A DNA stretch of 40,286 bases from an uncultured Methanobrevibacter sp. Its GTDB lineage: Archaea; Methanobacteriota; Methanobacteria; Methanobacteriales; Methanobacteriaceae. Within the stretch, counting starts at the first letter, position 1; the number at the start of each line of letters is the position of its first letter. The notes under the pieces are model-generated. The model was given only the letters and a program-made list of their open reading frames with translations, had not been told where the DNA came from and made no database searches. The stretch covers positions 16,894 to 57,179 of the forward strand of contig OMVX01000013.1 of NCBI GenBank assembly GCA_900314605.1. The letters run 5' to 3'. Both the position numbers and the translations under genes were made by a program. Positions 8,323-29,955 of the stretch are shown piece by piece.

Positions 8323-8453
8323 TATTTCACCATCTATTATTTTTCTTAATATTTTCTAGGTTTCTTTTATCTTATGTATAATTATTTTTATTTATATATT
8401 TTTTATTTTAATAACTTTTATAATTATTTTTATCTTATTTTATTATACTTTTT

Positions 8454-8530
8454 AACTTATATGTTATTACTTATTTGTTATTACTTATAAGTTATAACTT
8501 TTAATTTATAAGTTATATTTTATATATTCT
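8454..8530. repeat. Heptad repeat block (WWSTTAT), eleven units
   Basis: From 8454 the sequence can be read as consecutive 7-base units without a gap: AACTTAT, ATGTTAT, TACTTAT, TTGTTAT and so on, to 8523 or 8530. Nearly all units end in TTAT and several have C or G at position 3. Neighbouring units create short palindromes such as ACTTATAAGT and AAGTTATAACTT. The same heptad family recurs at 24.3-24.9 kb and 29.5-29.9 kb. Confidence 0.85.
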
Positions 8531-8592
8531 AACATATTATTTATAAGGTATAAATTACAATATTTAAGTAATAAGTTATAAACAATAATATG

Positions 8593-8637
8593 AACTCATT
8601 ATTAATATCTTTAAATTTTATAATAATGAGTTTTTTT
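8593..8637 (+). terminator. Perfect 12-bp inverted repeat plus T7, upstream of parA-like gene
   Basis: AACTCATTATTA (8593-8604) pairs perfectly with 8621-8632 across a 16-base loop, and seven T follow directly on the plus strand. It has the form of an intrinsic terminator, yet no plus-strand gene lies upstream because the neighbour is divergent. It could end an unrecognised small RNA, act in a parA leader, or be a protein-binding site. The structure is certain; the role is not. Confidence 0.5.
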
Positions 8638-8759: not shown

Positions 8760-9539
8760 ATGGGAGAAACTATAGCAATTATGAATCAAAAAGGAGGTTG
8801 TGGTAAAACTACAACCGTTGTAAATCTTGCTACATCACTTGCTGTTATGGGGAAATCCGTTCTTATTGTAGACATGGATCCTCAAGCTAATGCAACTACT
8901 AGTTTTGGTATTGATAAAACAGATTTAGAATATACTATCTATTCTGCTATTAGTGGAGAAGTTTCTATTAAAAAAACAACTTTCCCTACATTTATTCAAA
9001 ATTTATATATTATACCAAGTAATATTTCCTTAAGTGGTGTTGGCGTAGAATTAAGTAAATTAGAAAATTATCATATAATTTTAAAAGATTTACTAGCGGA
9101 TGTTAAAGATTTATTTGATTATATTTTAATAGATCTTCCACCATCCCTAGGTATTATTACTATTAATGGTTTAGTAGCTTCAGATACTGTTATTATTCCT
9201 ATACAAGCAGAATATTATGCTTTGGAAGGAGTTGCAGATTTAATAAATACTATTGACTTAGTAGAAAATAGATTAAACAGTCCTACCCCTATTAAAGGAA
9301 TTTTATTAACCCTTTATGATACAAGGACAAGATTAAGTAAAGATGTACACGAAGAGTTATTGAAATATTTTGGTGGTAAAGAAAAATTATTCAAAACTGT
9401 TATTCCAAGAAATATACGATTGGCTGAAGCTCCTAGTCATGGAAAACCATGTATTATTTATGATTATGAAAGTCCAGGAACAGAAGCTTATATTAATTTA
9501 GCTCAAGAAATTTTAGATATGGAAAATAAGGAGGCATAA
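8760..9539 (+). CDS. ParA/Soj-family partition ATPase
   Basis: This 259-residue cytoplasmic ATPase belongs to the ParA/MinD superfamily, which forms ATP-dependent dimers on DNA and moves or positions chromosomes, plasmids or protein clusters. The deviant Walker A motif KGGCGKTT is at residues 11-18 with the signature Lys11 and catalytic Lys16. VDMDPQANATTSFG follows at 37-50, and Walker B LIDLPPSLG is near 124-132. GGAG nine bases upstream of the ATG fixes the start. The next gene starts one base after the stop and has its ribosome binding site inside this gene's last codons, so the two are translationally linked. There is no membrane-targeting helix at the C-terminus, which argues for Soj/ParA rather than MinD. 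Confidence 0.9.
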   Translation: MGETIAIMNQKGGCGKTTTVVNLATSLAVMGKSVLIVDMDPQANATTSFGIDKTDLEYTIYSAISGEVSIKKTTFPTFIQNLYIIPSNISLSGVGVELSKLENYHIILKDLLADVKDLFDYILIDLPPSLGIITINGLVASDTVIIPIQAEYYALEGVADLINTIDLVENRLNSPTPIKGILLTLYDTRTRLSKDVHEELLKYFGGKEKLFKTVIPRNIRLAEAPSHGKPCIIYDYESPGTEAYINLAQEILDMENKEA

Positions 9540-9540
9540 A

Positions 9541-10041
9541 ATGTCTAAAAATCGAAACCCGGGATTAGGTCGTGGATTAGACTCTCTCATTCCTAATAAA
9601 TATTATAATGACGATTTTGATGCTAATTCTGCCCAATCCTTAGAAGATATGTTAGATGATCAATCAGAAGATTCTACTTCAAATCAAGAAAATGATACTA
9701 AAGAAGTTACAAATTCATCTGAAAAAGAAAACATCGACAAACAAAAGGATAATGCTCAAAAACCTAAAGAAAATGAAAATTCTTCTAATAATAATACTAT
9801 AAAAGAAGAAAAACCAGTTCAAGAAGATTCTGTTGTACAAAAACATGTTGAAGAAGTTTTAGAAATTGTACGAAAAAACCCTAGAATTACTCTCTGGTCT
9901 GTTCATTCTTCTGCAGTTTTTAGATATTTAAGAAAAACTCAACCAGAGTTTAGTATTAGTAATGAAGCTTCTTCTTTAATTGATGAAGTTGTTTCTCAAA
10001 AATATCCTGAAATTTGGCAATTATTTGAAGATGATTTATAA
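9541..10041 (+). CDS. ParA partner with ParB-type GLGRGL motif, no ParB core
   Basis: This 166-residue protein begins like ParB/Spo0J, with GLGRGLDSLIP at residues 8-18, the segment that in ParB contacts ParA and stimulates its ATPase. The rest is different. Residues 25-95 are acidic, Asn/Ser/Lys-rich and probably disordered, and residues 96-166 form a compact helical domain (RITLWSVHSSAVFRYLRK, then a conserved-looking EASSLIDEVV). I see no ParB CTP-binding GERR-type motif and no helix-turn-helix. GGAGG lies seven bases before the ATG. The sequence shows a ParA-coupled partner; that it binds DNA, membrane or another cargo through the C-terminal domain is inference. Confidence 0.75.
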   Translation: MSKNRNPGLGRGLDSLIPNKYYNDDFDANSAQSLEDMLDDQSEDSTSNQENDTKEVTNSSEKENIDKQKDNAQKPKENENSSNNNTIKEEKPVQEDSVVQKHVEEVLEIVRKNPRITLWSVHSSAVFRYLRKTQPEFSISNEASSLIDEVVSQKYPEIWQLFEDDL

Positions 10042-14357: not shown

Positions 14358-15977
14358 ATGAAAAATTCTTCTAAATCTAATTTAAATAAGAATAATTACT
14401 CAAATCATCCTATTCTCCTAGAATTGAATATGACTCCAGAGGAGTTTGAAAAAAAATATGGTGTATCATTTGATGATTTTGAAAATGACGTAGATTTATC
14501 TACTCATCAATTATTAGAACAATTAGATTTATTAGAAGATGAAACTCAAGAAAAAAATAATTCTACTAAAGAAAAATCTAATTTAAAAGACCGCAAAAAA
14601 TTTTCTAATAAAAAAAATAATAAAAATTCTGATTCTAAAAAAAAGTCATCTTCTTATTTTTCTCTTTCTAAAACTTCTAATAATAAATATATCAATCAAA
14701 TTAAAGATATTGAAGATGAATCTATCAGTTCTGGTATTAGTAATGTTAGAACTTTTTTTAATCAAAATAGATATACAAAAGTTTCAGATAGGGAATTAGA
14801 GGAAGTAAGAACTATTGCTGTTGCTTGCGAACTTGCCCCTGCTAAAACACTTATTCCTATTTTAAAACTTATTAGAAAATTTGAAAAAGAAAATTCTTTA
14901 AATTGGAAAAAAACTCGTATTATCGGATTAGTTCATGGAGAAGGTGCTGAAGAATTAATTAAACCTTATTGTGATGATATATTTTATATTGGTCAAGGTA
15001 GAAGAGCCAATCGTTCTCGTAATTCTAAAATTAATCTTTTTAGATTAATTATTCAGGATATTTATAAGGCTACTATTGCTATGTCTGGAGAACAAATAGA
15101 TTTACTAATTACTTGTGGAAATGCAGGTGATGTTAGAAAATCTATTTATGCTGCTAGATTACTTCGTACTCCTGTTTTACATATAGAACAGGATATTTAT
15201 AATCCTATTGAATTTATATCTTATGCTAATCTTATAGTTACTACTTCTTTTGATAATGAGATTTACTTAAAAAAACAATATGGTCTTAAAAATGTTAAAA
15301 ATATTGGAGGATTTCCTCAGGCGGCTTATGTTCATAGTATTCTTAAATCTAATCAATTACTCAAAAAAGACGATATTATCAAACAATATGGTTTTGATCA
15401 TTATATTTTAGTAGTTTTAGGTGGAGATTTATCTTTAGATGATGTTCAAGATTTAATACCCTTGATAGATGGTTTTGATTATCCTACCTTAATTGCTCCT
15501 TATCGTTTTGATAAAAAATTTGTTGAAGATTTATCTAATTCTGATAAAGTTATTATTTTAGATAATTTTGTTGATGTTTTAAGTTTATCATATCATTGTG
15601 ATGCACTTATTTTTGGTGCTGGTATGGGTATGACAATAGAAGCAGGAGTTCTTAAAGTTCCTTCTGTTAAACTCTATGGTTTCCACCCATTCCATAGTAG
15701 TATAAATTTAGCAAAAGACATGAATATTCCTATAGTTCAGATATATGATATTCCTAATGTTTTACAAAAATTATATCCTCCCCAAGGAGATATTGTTCAT
15801 GATGGACAATTAGCAGCTTATAAGGTTGTTAATTTAATTAATAATTTTGATTACTCCCTTAAAAAAGGAGATTTTTTATCTACAATTAAAATTTGGAGAG
15901 CTCGATCCAGATTTAAAAAATCTAGAAAACGTTCTTTTTCTTCTAAATTTAAAAAATTTTTTAAAAAATCTAAATAA
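14358..15977 (+). CDS. GT-B-like glycosyltransferase/epimerase-fold protein with disordered N-terminus
   Basis: I place the start at ATG 14358 (539 residues) because GGGTTGG lies just upstream; an in-frame TTG nine bases earlier is the only longer option. Residues 1-130 are Lys/Ser/Asn-rich and look disordered. From about 150 the protein resembles the two-Rossmann fold of UDP-GlcNAc 2-epimerases and GT-B glycosyltransferases: ACELAPAKTLIPIL, GLVHGEGAEE, LITCGNAGDVR, and a C-terminal half with VVLGGDLS and the nucleotide-site-like FGAGMGMTIEAGVLKVP. The last 30 residues are strongly basic (RSRFKKSRKR and similar), as in peripheral membrane enzymes. The fold assignment is moderate; the substrate is unknown. 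Confidence 0.55.
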   Translation: MKNSSKSNLNKNNYSNHPILLELNMTPEEFEKKYGVSFDDFENDVDLSTHQLLEQLDLLEDETQEKNNSTKEKSNLKDRKKFSNKKNNKNSDSKKKSSSYFSLSKTSNNKYINQIKDIEDESISSGISNVRTFFNQNRYTKVSDRELEEVRTIAVACELAPAKTLIPILKLIRKFEKENSLNWKKTRIIGLVHGEGAEELIKPYCDDIFYIGQGRRANRSRNSKINLFRLIIQDIYKATIAMSGEQIDLLITCGNAGDVRKSIYAARLLRTPVLHIEQDIYNPIEFISYANLIVTTSFDNEIYLKKQYGLKNVKNIGGFPQAAYVHSILKSNQLLKKDDIIKQYGFDHYILVVLGGDLSLDDVQDLIPLIDGFDYPTLIAPYRFDKKFVEDLSNSDKVIILDNFVDVLSLSYHCDALIFGAGMGMTIEAGVLKVPSVKLYGFHPFHSSINLAKDMNIPIVQIYDIPNVLQKLYPPQGDIVHDGQLAAYKVVNLINNFDYSLKKGDFLSTIKIWRARSRFKKSRKRSFSSKFKKFFKKSK

Positions 15978-22283: not shown

Positions 22284-24113
22284 TTAGAAATGAATCCTTT
22301 GAGAAGTATTTCTAGGTATTGGTAATTTTCTATAAGGCATATCTTCATTTTCTTTTGATACTATTTCTATCAACTCTTTAATATCCATATTCACTTTTTC
22401 TCCACTAGACCTTACAGTTACCTGGAATTCTTCTGATTCTATTTCATTATCTCCTACTACAAATGTATATGGAACCCATTCTTTTCCTGCATTTCTAATC
22501 TTTTTACCTACTCTATCTTCACTATTATCAATATCTACTCTAATATTAGCTTTTTCTATTTTGTCTGCTAATTCATTTGCATATTCAATGTGCCTTTCTG
22601 CTATAGGCAATATTCTCACTTGTATGGGACTTAACCATACTGGTAGCATAGGTTGTTTTTCATTTATTTCTATTGCATTTTTTTCTAATAAACTACATAT
22701 TACTCTTTCAATACTTCCTGTTGGTGAGCAGTGTAATATTATAGGATGATGTTCTTTATCATCTTCACCTAGGTATTTTATATCAAATCTTTTACCACTT
22801 TCAATATCTATTTGCACTGTAGGGTTTTCTATAGGTCTTCCTAAATAGTCTATAGCTGCGAAGTCTATTTTACAACTCCAATAATGTTTTCTTTCAGGTA
22901 AGATTTCAAGTAGCATTGGTTTATTTATTCTTTTAGCTGTATTATACATCCATTCTTTATGATCTTTATAAAAATCTTCAGTTGCTCTAAAAATAATTTC
23001 ATAATTTACATCTAAATCTTTACCAGTTTGTACACACATATCCACTTGTTTATCAAATTCTTCTAATGTTGATTCCATATCTTTACAGAAACTGTGGAAA
23101 TCTGGCATAGTGAATGCTCTTAATCTTTTTAATCCTACTACTTCTCCTTTCTGTTCATATCTAAAACTATATGTTGAAAGTTCATAGACTTTTGCTGGTA
23201 AATTTTTCCATGTTAAAAAAGTGTTTTTCATTACTCTAAATGCTCCAAAACAACATGCAAATCTAAGCATCAATGGATTTTTTGTTGCAGTTCTATATTG
23301 TCTTTCTCCAAATTTTGCAGCATGTTCTTTTATCGCTTCATTTTCTAAATTATAGAAAACTGGAGTTTCTATAGGCATTGCTCCTTGACTTACAACTAGG
23401 TCATAAACATAATCTGCTAATAAATCTCTTATTAATCTTCCTTTTGGATACCATTTTAGATTTCCTGCATCAGATGCACTTTCATTATCACATATTTCTT
23501 TTTCTTTCATTAATTTTACATGTGGAGGTTCTCCTTCATCTGATTCTCCTTTTCCTATTTCATATTTAACTAATTTTTCTAGCTGATCTTTTCCGTTATA
23601 GTTAAATTCTTTGATATCACTAGTTTTACTATCATTTAATATATACCATTTAGATTCTGGACCTTTTTCTTTTGTTTCTTCTTCATCTATTTCAGTACTT
23701 ATTGTTCGTGATAGTTCACTTAATGGATGTCCCTTACATGATAATTCGAAACCTTTATACCAACCAAATGGTACTCTGTATACTTCATATCCTTCTTCTT
23801 TCAATAATTCTTTTGCTTTTTTTAATATATCTATTGCAAATTTTGGAGATCCGAGTGAACTTGATAAATGTGCATATGGATAAAGTACTATTCTTTCTGC
23901 TTTTACTTCTTTACTTACCTGTTTAGCTTCTTTTGCTAAGTTCTTAGCAATAGCGTCAGGATTTTTTTCATCATCTTTTTCTACAGATGTAAACACTACT
24001 AAGGATTCATTAAATACTCCTTCTTTATTAGTCTCTTTAATCTCTTCAGCTACTGGAGTTTTATTTTTTGTTTTGTATTTTAAATAATCAGAATGTATTA
24101 TCAATACACGCAT
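22284..24113 (-). CDS. thrS: Threonyl-tRNA synthetase, archaeal type
   Basis: ThrS charges tRNA(Thr). The 609-residue protein starts with the archaeal editing domain related to D-aminoacyl-tRNA deacylase (residues 1-140; [23 protein letters not shown]), which clears Ser-tRNA(Thr) and differs from the bacterial N2 domain. The class II core follows (about 190-490), with [18 protein letters not shown] as motif 2 and [12 protein letters not shown] as motif 3. The anticodon-binding domain forms the end ([15 protein letters not shown] onward). GGTGATTAA before the ATG gives the start. Upstream is the largest intergenic region of the window. Confidence 0.97.
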
Positions 24114-24366
24114 TTAATCACCTTGTTTTTTTAAATATTTAAATTCCATTTAATATTTTATTTAATATTTACATTAAATTTAATTTTTTTTTTAATTTTA
24201 TAATAATTTATTTTTTACAATTTATATTATTTTATTATTTTTTTAAAATATTAATTATACATTCTCTTTTATCAATAATTTATATTATTTTATAACTTAT
24301 TACTTATAACTTATAATATATTTATTATAACTTATATCTTATAATAATTTATTATAAGTTATATCT

Positions 24367-24716
24367 TATTACTTATTTTTTATAACTTATTCCTTAATTC
24401 TTATAACTTTTTACTTATTTCTTATTAGTTATATTTTATAACTTATAACTTATTTTTTAGAACTTATATTATATAACTTATAACTTATTTCTTATAACTT
24501 ATATTATATAATTTATAACTTATTTTTTATAACTTATCTAGTATAACTTATAACCTATTTCTTATAACTTATATCTTATAACTTTTTACTTATTTCTTAT
24601 TTCTTATATTTTATAACTTATAACCTATTTCTTATTAGTTATATATTATTAGTTATATCTTATAAATTATATCTTATATTTTAAAACTTATTACTTAAAT
24701 CTTATAAGTTATAACT
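24367..24716. repeat. Ten-copy 35-bp tandem array built of five heptads
   Basis: Units begin at 24367, 24402, 24437, 24472, 24507, 24542, 24577, 24612, 24647 and 24682, exactly 35 bases apart. Each divides into five 7-base words, most starting with TAT and close to TATAACT; in the best units the third word is TATTTCT. Phase is kept without any insertion or deletion over 350 bases despite many substitutions. I checked the register base by base. Confidence 0.9.
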
Positions 24717-24802
24717 TATTCTTATTAATTTTTTCTTATAAGTTATAACTTATTCTTACTAATTTTTTCTTATAAGTTATAACTTAAACTTACTAAATTA
24801 AT
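24701..24802. repeat. Three-copy 34-bp tandem repeat with palindromic heads
   Basis: Units starting CTTATAAGTTATAACTTA begin at 24701, 24735 and 24769, 34 bases apart. The head contains the palindromes CTTATAAG and AAGTTATAACTT; the tail is T-rich. The first unit overlaps the end of the 35-bp array. Confidence 0.85.
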
Positions 24803-25358
24803 CTTATAATTTTCTCTAAATTTTATCATTATTTTTTCAAATTTTTCCCTTAGCATATAATTTATTTTTTTTTACATCAATTAATTATTCTTTTTATTCA
24901 AATTTTTTTATTATAAGTTATTACTTATAACTTATACATTCCATTATAATATTATTTTTTTTATTTTTTTTATATAATTTTTATTTTTTTATCTTTTTTT
25001 TAATATTTTGTTCATATCACTTTTTTTTAAATTTTCATTAAAAAAAAATAGAAATACTAATCTTATTTTTTCACTTAATTTTATTTTTAAAATTTTATTT
25101 TTTTTATCTTCTTTTTATTATAACTTATAACTTATAATTTATAATTAAAATATATTCATTTTTAATTATATTTTTTTTACATTATTAATTTTTATTCCTA
25201 TTTTTTTATTATATTGTTTATAATTTTTCATATCTATTTTTCTCTATTTTTCAATTTTTTTTTTTAAATATTTTTTTTTATTTTATACAATATTTAATCA
25301 ATTTTTTATAAAATGAATAATAAAATAAAAATATATTATAAATTATTGTTGTGATTTT

Positions 25359-29544: not shown

Positions 29545-29955
29545 TTATTATAACTTATAACTTATAATATTTTTTTTATTATTTTTAACTTATAACTTAA
29601 TACTAAAATTTTAACTTATTTCTTATAAATTATACTAATTTTCTGATAACTTATATTTTATAATTATAACTTATCATTTTATATTAGAACTTTTAATTTT
29701 TTTCTTATTTCTTATTACTTATAAGTTATAACTTATTATTAATTTTATTATAACTTATAACATATAATCATTAATTTTTTATAAGTTTTAACTTATTACT
29801 TATAACTTATAATATTTCTTAAATTATAAGTTATAACTTATAATATTTCTTAAATTATTACTTATAACTTATAATTTTTTATTTTACTTATAAGTTTTAA
29901 CTTATTATTTATAACTTATAATTATCACCATTTTTTTTATAAGATATAAGTTATA
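29545..29955. repeat. Degenerate heptad repeats with a 31-bp sub-array
   Basis: AACTTAT/AAGTTAT/TACTTAT words recur in short runs, e.g. TACTTAT-AAGTTAT near 29715-29735. Between 29805 and about 29897 a 31-bp unit beginning ACTTATAAT repeats three times (starts 29805, 29836, 29867). It is less regular than the 24.4-kb array and alternates between orientations of the heptad. Confidence 0.75.

Follow-up and report, generated by a model that had tools for sequence, protein, structure and literature searches.

A two-gene locus of an uncultured Methanobrevibacter sp. is best explained, judging from its sequence, as a hybrid SegAB chromosome-partition system acting on origin-linked heptad centromeres, a reading that we consider very probable. 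The locus lies in a stretch of 40,286 nucleotides (the window; contig OMVX01000013.1, positions 16,894 to 57,179) and encodes a Soj-type ParA followed by a small partner protein, in which a ParB-type amino-terminal peptide is joined to an archaeal SegB domain. Our reading builds on the observed homology, gene pairing, peptide motif, co-conservation of this motif with a pocket of ParA, and placement of the arrays (Table 1).

Table 1 Features of the segAB locus and of the heptad arrays, with positions given for the window
Feature	Position	Strand	Basis
parA, ParA ATPase of the Soj type with 259 aa, acting as SegA	8760..9539	+	Pfam AAA_31, E = 6.8e-63
segB homologue with ParB-type ParA-docking tail (predicted), 166 aa	9541..10041	+	phmmer against SegB 7duv, 7.4e-8; order-wide presence
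GLGRGLDSLIP (residues 8-18), predicted ParA-docking peptide	9562..9594	+	Motif conservation; same in bacterial ParB beside ParA
Linker, low-complexity, probably disordered	9595..9837	+	Length range in relatives; AF2 model of low pLDDT
SegB core domain, residues 100-166; predicted by homology to dimerise and to bind DNA (RHH)	9838..10041	+	PDB SegB profile matches
Heptad array 1 of TTATAAS type, 5' of segA; predicted to serve as SegB site and operator	8453..8581	.	TRF period 7; lag-7 periodicity; class-wide upstream conservation
Heptad array 2, largest, thrS/ilvD intergenic; predicted SegB site	24290..25144	.	TRF score 315, TTATAAC x74.9
Heptad array 3, about 55 heptads, argS/argF intergenic; predicted SegB site	29547..29950	.	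TRF TTATAAC x55.6
Threonyl-tRNA synthetase	22284..24113	-	Pfam

A conserved gene pair of ParA and a small partner protein

The ParA ATPase contains the Walker A motif KGGCGKT, and its stop codon is separated from the ATG of the partner gene by 1 base. The partner begins with MSKNRNPGLGRGLDSLIP, continues into a low-complexity stretch rich in Ser, Glu, Lys and Asn, and ends in a conserved domain starting at about residue 100. A preliminary description of this DNA had proposed a ParB-like motif at the amino terminus of a protein devoid of the ParB CTPase and helix-turn-helix core, and both points were borne out. The motif is present, and no ParB domain was detected in the partner by Pfam. Searches of the partner against Pfam, NCBIfam and PHROGs yielded no family, the matches reflecting compositional noise only. 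Likewise, no ParB_N domain was found in the whole genome by a search giving positive matches in control genomes, which led us to reject the presence of a full ParB at another locus. The genome encodes one Soj-type ParA, the sole other match to the same query being weak and distant, and the SegB homologue is single-copy.

Homologue searches identified the partner in 135 of the 151 genomes of the order, representing all 19 genera, as well as in one other order belonging to the class. Matches beyond the class came from one family whose SegBs exhibit the same tail (f10), from Sulfolobales-like genomes, from a Methanohalobium plasmid and from a few other sources. At nearly all loci with enough upstream sequence a ParA gene is located immediately 5' of segB, extending across the order the tight parA coupling initially deduced from the one-base gap. 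One contig labelled as a Bacilli bacterium (JAFRZY010000007.1; L085) carries a Methanobrevibacter segAB and is probably a mis-binned MAG contig. A SegB-like open reading frame in another genome (L202; G672:C10:44000-48500) comprises a repeated linker (SEVITPKSEVKTEESRVLSEEDREM...) followed by two tandem SegB domains and is reminiscent of the repeat-bearing SegB of Metallosphaera. SMC_N searches of the Methanobacteria G000, G012, G046, G118 and G150 listed no open reading frame larger than ~930 residues, except for a 973-residue frame in G118; the comparison genome G157 yielded 1135 residues. Canonical SMC may be missing from these Methanobacteria, and SegAB may then be their main candidate segregation system.

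The carboxy-terminal domain is of the SegB type

The carboxy-terminal domain, taken for a short unknown helical domain in the preliminary description, is by sequence homology an archaeal SegB domain. A phmmer search of the partner against the PDB returned only two entries, both SegB (7duv and, with E = 1.8e-5, 7dv2), and a profile built from Methanobacteria only matched the SegB entries at 2.2e-10 (7dv2) and 4.5e-10. These single-sequence and Methanobacteria-only searches are the clean tests; the search with profile A4 is partly circular because A4 includes Sulfolobales SegB. The AF2 monomer of the carboxy-terminal domain exhibited four helices with a pLDDT of 84, and the model of full-length SegB was poor (pLDDT 60). 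Foldseek recovered no SegB structure with either the full-length or the better carboxy-terminal model, and the RHH fold is therefore a prediction by homology.

In Sulfolobus SegB, the amino terminus is unstructured and the carboxy terminus adopts an RHH fold (PMC5120986; PMC12284271). By this homology the domain would bind DNA, in line with the earlier proposal of a different carboxy-terminal domain supplying this function. Given its SegB domain, the pair is therefore a SegAB system and of a known kind. As an archaeal segregation system, SegAB has been published before: a 2016 review listed it for Methanothermobacter (PMC5120986), and its occurrence in Euryarchaeota was reported in 2025 (PMC12284271). 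From the minimal archaeal partition module originally envisaged, the partition-type pair is thus retained and the claim of a new module is dropped.

Soj-type ParA and ParB-type tail are conserved together

Within the PDB, ParA matched 8ray (6.6e-70), which from its sequence we take to be Myxococcus ParA, and Soj (6iub, 9.8e-61), with SegA (7dut) reaching only 4.9e-16. It is 48–52% identical to bacterial ParA over nearly the full length. In a tree of 40 ParA sequences, an inner branch measuring 3.8 changes per site (support 100/100) set the SegA group apart, and the ATPases of the motif-bearing SegBs were of the Soj type, far from Sulfolobus SegA. Since ParA groups with bacterial Soj and SegA resides on this long branch, SegAB membership applies in the wide, published sense only. 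The placement of a paralogous ParA (G139) as neighbour of SegA was weak, involved long branches and was disregarded.

A ParB-type tail of the form LG[RKML]GLD[AS]LI is carried by 102 of 120 distinct SegBs from Methanobacteria and the second archaeal family. Its LG.G core is invariant in these 102 sequences, the third position being K (62), R (33), M (5) or L (2) and thus K/R in 95, and the linker between motif and core varies from 25 to 250 residues. As the partner occurs in most genomes of the order and the motif is kept to this extent in an otherwise variable tail, the pair is not due to chance. In 7 of the 102, including the Methanothermobacter tail GLGMGLDALI, Met or Leu stands in place of the basic residue, which in Myxococcus is critical for stimulating the ATPase. 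Bacterial ParB genes adjoining ParA share the tail sequence, for example MSKRLGKGLDALIP in Paenibacillus.

A study of Myxococcus positioned the ParB peptide arginine beside ParA residues Y81, E82, D110 and E117, with Y81 and E117 being invariant (PMC12462528). Y61 and E97 of the window ParA are the equivalents of the latter two, and all 99 scorable archaeal pairs with the tail retain both residues. A second ParA/SegB-like pair (L047; G139:C1:476500-481000) represents a natural double loss: its SegB has lost the tail, reading GFGADMGSML, and its ParA has R and Y at the Y81 and E117 positions, so that the peptide pocket is lost as well. SegA is devoid of the Y81 position. The one exception is L176, where the pocket Tyr and Glu are kept and the tail is absent. 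It is this joint pattern of tail and pocket that most strongly suggests a ParB-like docking of the tail.

Tandem heptads as predicted SegB sites

Autocorrelation over the region of array 1 (8441–8600) gave z values of 5.8, 7.5 and 5.2 at lags of 7, 14 and 21. Pooling 86 distinct segA-upstream regions resulted in peaks only at lags 7, 14, 21 and 28, with the repeat unit clearest in the G+C-richer Methanothermobacter (TTATAAGTTATAACTTATAAG). The best 20-bp triple heptad upstream of segA exceeded all 60 dinucleotide shuffles in 80 of 103 loci, based on a heptad consensus read partly from the loci later tested; the Sulfolobales and two paralogue loci did not beat their shuffles. Within the window, TTATAASTTATAAS was matched 71 times with 1 mismatch allowed (0.9 expected), exclusively in the three arrays (for array 1 at 8477–8581), which an unbiased scan identified as the three strongest 7-bp periodic regions. 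Array 2 showed the top periodicity of the window, its dense part of about 75 heptads spanning 24290–24809. In Methanothermobacter and others (L034, L035, L041, L048), a gene with a ThrRS-like carboxy terminus was seen by eye just 5' of segA.

The window contained a single match to the Sulfolobus motif TCTAGASTCTAGA compared to 0.7 expected, showing no enrichment of it. The Sulfolobus SegB site is TCTAGA-S-TCTAGA (PMC12284271), and because both elements consist of a 6-bp palindrome and a G/C spacer with a period of 7, we read the TTATAA-S heptads as retaining the Sulfolobus SegB recognition geometry and differing in the hexamer. The heptads had been put forward early on as a candidate binding site, and this case has become stronger with the Sulfolobus-type architecture, the class-wide conservation and the larger orc1/cdc6-linked arrays. 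In genome G157, linker repeats (SDKL) of one segB (L162) are encoded by the heptad-like GTGATAAGTT, and SegB sites may lie inside this coding region. Genome G157 has a second SegAB pair (L163; G157:C6), upstream of which a different 7-bp-like repeat, ATCTACG/ATCTACT, was apparent by eye, suggesting paralogue-specific sites.

Genome-wide, we counted 36 triple-heptad sites compared to 4 for a reversed control, nearly all of them on this contig. An orc1/cdc6 gene (contig positions 14408–15562; Pfam Cdc6_C, 4e-24) is located 1.3 kb beyond the window edge and about 10 kb from segAB. In archaea generally, orc1 marks the replication origin. In three Methanothermobacter chromosomes, which are related and not independent cases, all sites fall within 8–88 kb of orc1; segAB lies near +40 kb, and for three of the sites offsets of about 16, 39 and 58 kb recur between the chromosomes. 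The distance between segAB and orc1 was 10–85 kb in 8 of 9 chromosomes where both could be placed. The exception is a Methanothermus-like genome with segAB 203 kb from orc1; it contains six near-identical arrays within 31–94 kb of segAB and 109–172 kb from orc1, and no array directly 5' of segA. Methanothermobacter and the window genome have clustered sites, and in several genera sites lie near orc1; Methanosphaera and some Methanobrevibacter exhibit extra sites that are scattered and not clustered. Six near-identical copies of the element GTTATAAGTTATAACTTATAAGTTATAA were observed in genome G151 (L233–L238; six places at 1073612–1136474). Some copies have the flanks GCTAGAGAGAATT... and GTGAAATAGAGATAGACTTAT in common, and duplication of a longer unit may therefore account for the spread of the site.

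Comparison with known partition systems

SegAB of Sulfolobus/Saccharolobus (SegB 7duv and 7dv2, SegA 7dut) shares with the Methanobrevibacter locus a ParA-type gene directly followed by segB, an unstructured amino terminus (here probably so) on the same carboxy-terminal domain, a 6-bp palindrome plus one S base with period 7 upstream of segA, and enrichment of sites, here predicted ones, near segAB. In contrast, the ATPase here is a Soj-type ParA instead of SegA, the tail is of the ParB type and not the SELDF[IL]L[NK][RK]K of Sulfolobales SegB, the hexamer is TTATAA instead of TCTAGA, and long tandem arrays and orc1 linkage are found. With bacterial ParABS (Soj/Spo0J-parS) the locus has in common the Soj-type ParA with its conserved peptide pocket, the amino-terminal LG[RK]GLDALI peptide, and perhaps the location of sites near the replication origin, the predicted heptad sites being orc1-linked in Methanothermobacter and the window genome and scattered in Methanosphaera. 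Unlike ParABS, it comprises no CTPase (ParB_N), HTH or ParB carboxy-terminal domain, DNA binding being predicted by homology to be of the RHH type, and heptad arrays are found with no 16-bp parS. Type Ib plasmid partition systems, δ-ω of pSM19035 and ParF-ParG of TP228, also combine a ParA-type ATPase with a small RHH partner bearing a flexible amino-terminal tail, and use iterated short repeats as centromere, with ω binding heptads. We detected no sequence relation to their partner proteins, and the present system differs in being chromosomal, origin-linked and equipped with a ParB-type tail. A literature search covering few subscription papers yielded no published mention of a ParB-type tail on SegB, of Soj-type ParA and pocket co-conservation in these SegAB pairs, or of heptad arrays in Methanobacteria.

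Proposed mechanism and alternative explanations

Drawing on Sulfolobus SegAB and bacterial ParABS as analogues for DNA binding, ATPase stimulation and segregation, we propose that SegB dimers would bind tandem TTATAA-S heptads via the carboxy-terminal RHH domain, both at the arrays linked to the origin region and at the one upstream of segA; binding at the latter probably autoregulates the operon as well. Through the flexible linker, the LG[RK]GLDSLI tails would be offered to the nucleoid-bound ATP-dimer of Soj-type ParA. Docking of a tail in the dimer-interface pocket used by the ParB peptide would then induce ATP hydrolysis, and repeated release and rebinding in a diffusion ratchet would separate newly copied origin regions.

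Were SegB chiefly a transcription regulator, the heptads would be operators of segAB and neighbouring genes, with ParA modulating binding and no role in segregation. RHH proteins are commonly repressors, arrays 2 and 3 are intergenic and one array precedes segA, all of which fit such a role. Yet the largest arrays, of up to about 75 heptads, are situated away from segAB beside the unrelated housekeeping genes thrS/ilvD and argS/argF, sites cluster near orc1 in several genera, and deletion of SegAB disturbs segregation in Sulfolobales (PMC12284271), making a purely regulatory function unlikely. The resemblance of GLGRGL to ParB might also be coincidental and the tail serve another partner, as only nine residues are concerned, short motifs converge easily and Sulfolobales SegB is devoid of the motif. 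That the motif hardly varies among 102 sequences whose adjacent linker is variable, and that the L047 paralogue has lost tail and pocket together, renders coincidence quite unlikely.

We regard two further explanations as very improbable. ParA/MinD ATPases position many cargoes (PMC12462528), and the partner could bind a non-DNA cargo with its carboxy-terminal domain; this domain, however, is of the SegB type, and an array with SegB-site layout is found upstream across the class. An origin as relic of an integrated plasmid or virus partition locus would agree with the SegB homologue on the Methanohalobium plasmid and with the abundance of ParA relatives on plasmids, but not with the occurrence in nearly the whole order, the single copy in the genome and the orc1 linkage in all but one of the placed chromosomes. 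Beyond the hybrid SegAB system of this genome, we lean slightly towards a wider view: Methanobacteria and the second archaeal family may possess a chimeric partition machine, in which a bacterial-type ParA and a ParB-type activation peptide on archaeal SegB operate on origin-linked heptad centromeres. It would represent a ParABS counterpart without the ParB CTPase clamp, with amino-terminal tails and ATPase types swapped as a unit between SegB lineages.

Implications for archaeal chromosome segregation

Beyond the Sulfolobales, a 2025 study of SegB reported on one euryarchaeon, Thermococcus sibiricus; it detected no SegB sites in the vicinity of segAB and predicted that a different sequence is used (PMC12284271). 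To SegAB as already known, including that of Methanothermobacter, our analysis adds the ParB-type tail, the Soj-type ParA with its pocket and the TTATAA-S heptads. The latter provide a candidate SegB-site sequence for Methanobacteria, together with a map of its occurrence in methanogen genomes, among them those of gut and laboratory species, and the SegB tail and ParA pocket constitute a specific hypothesis for the motor contact. If true, ParA systems can retain the activation peptide while swapping the whole DNA-binding and clamp part.
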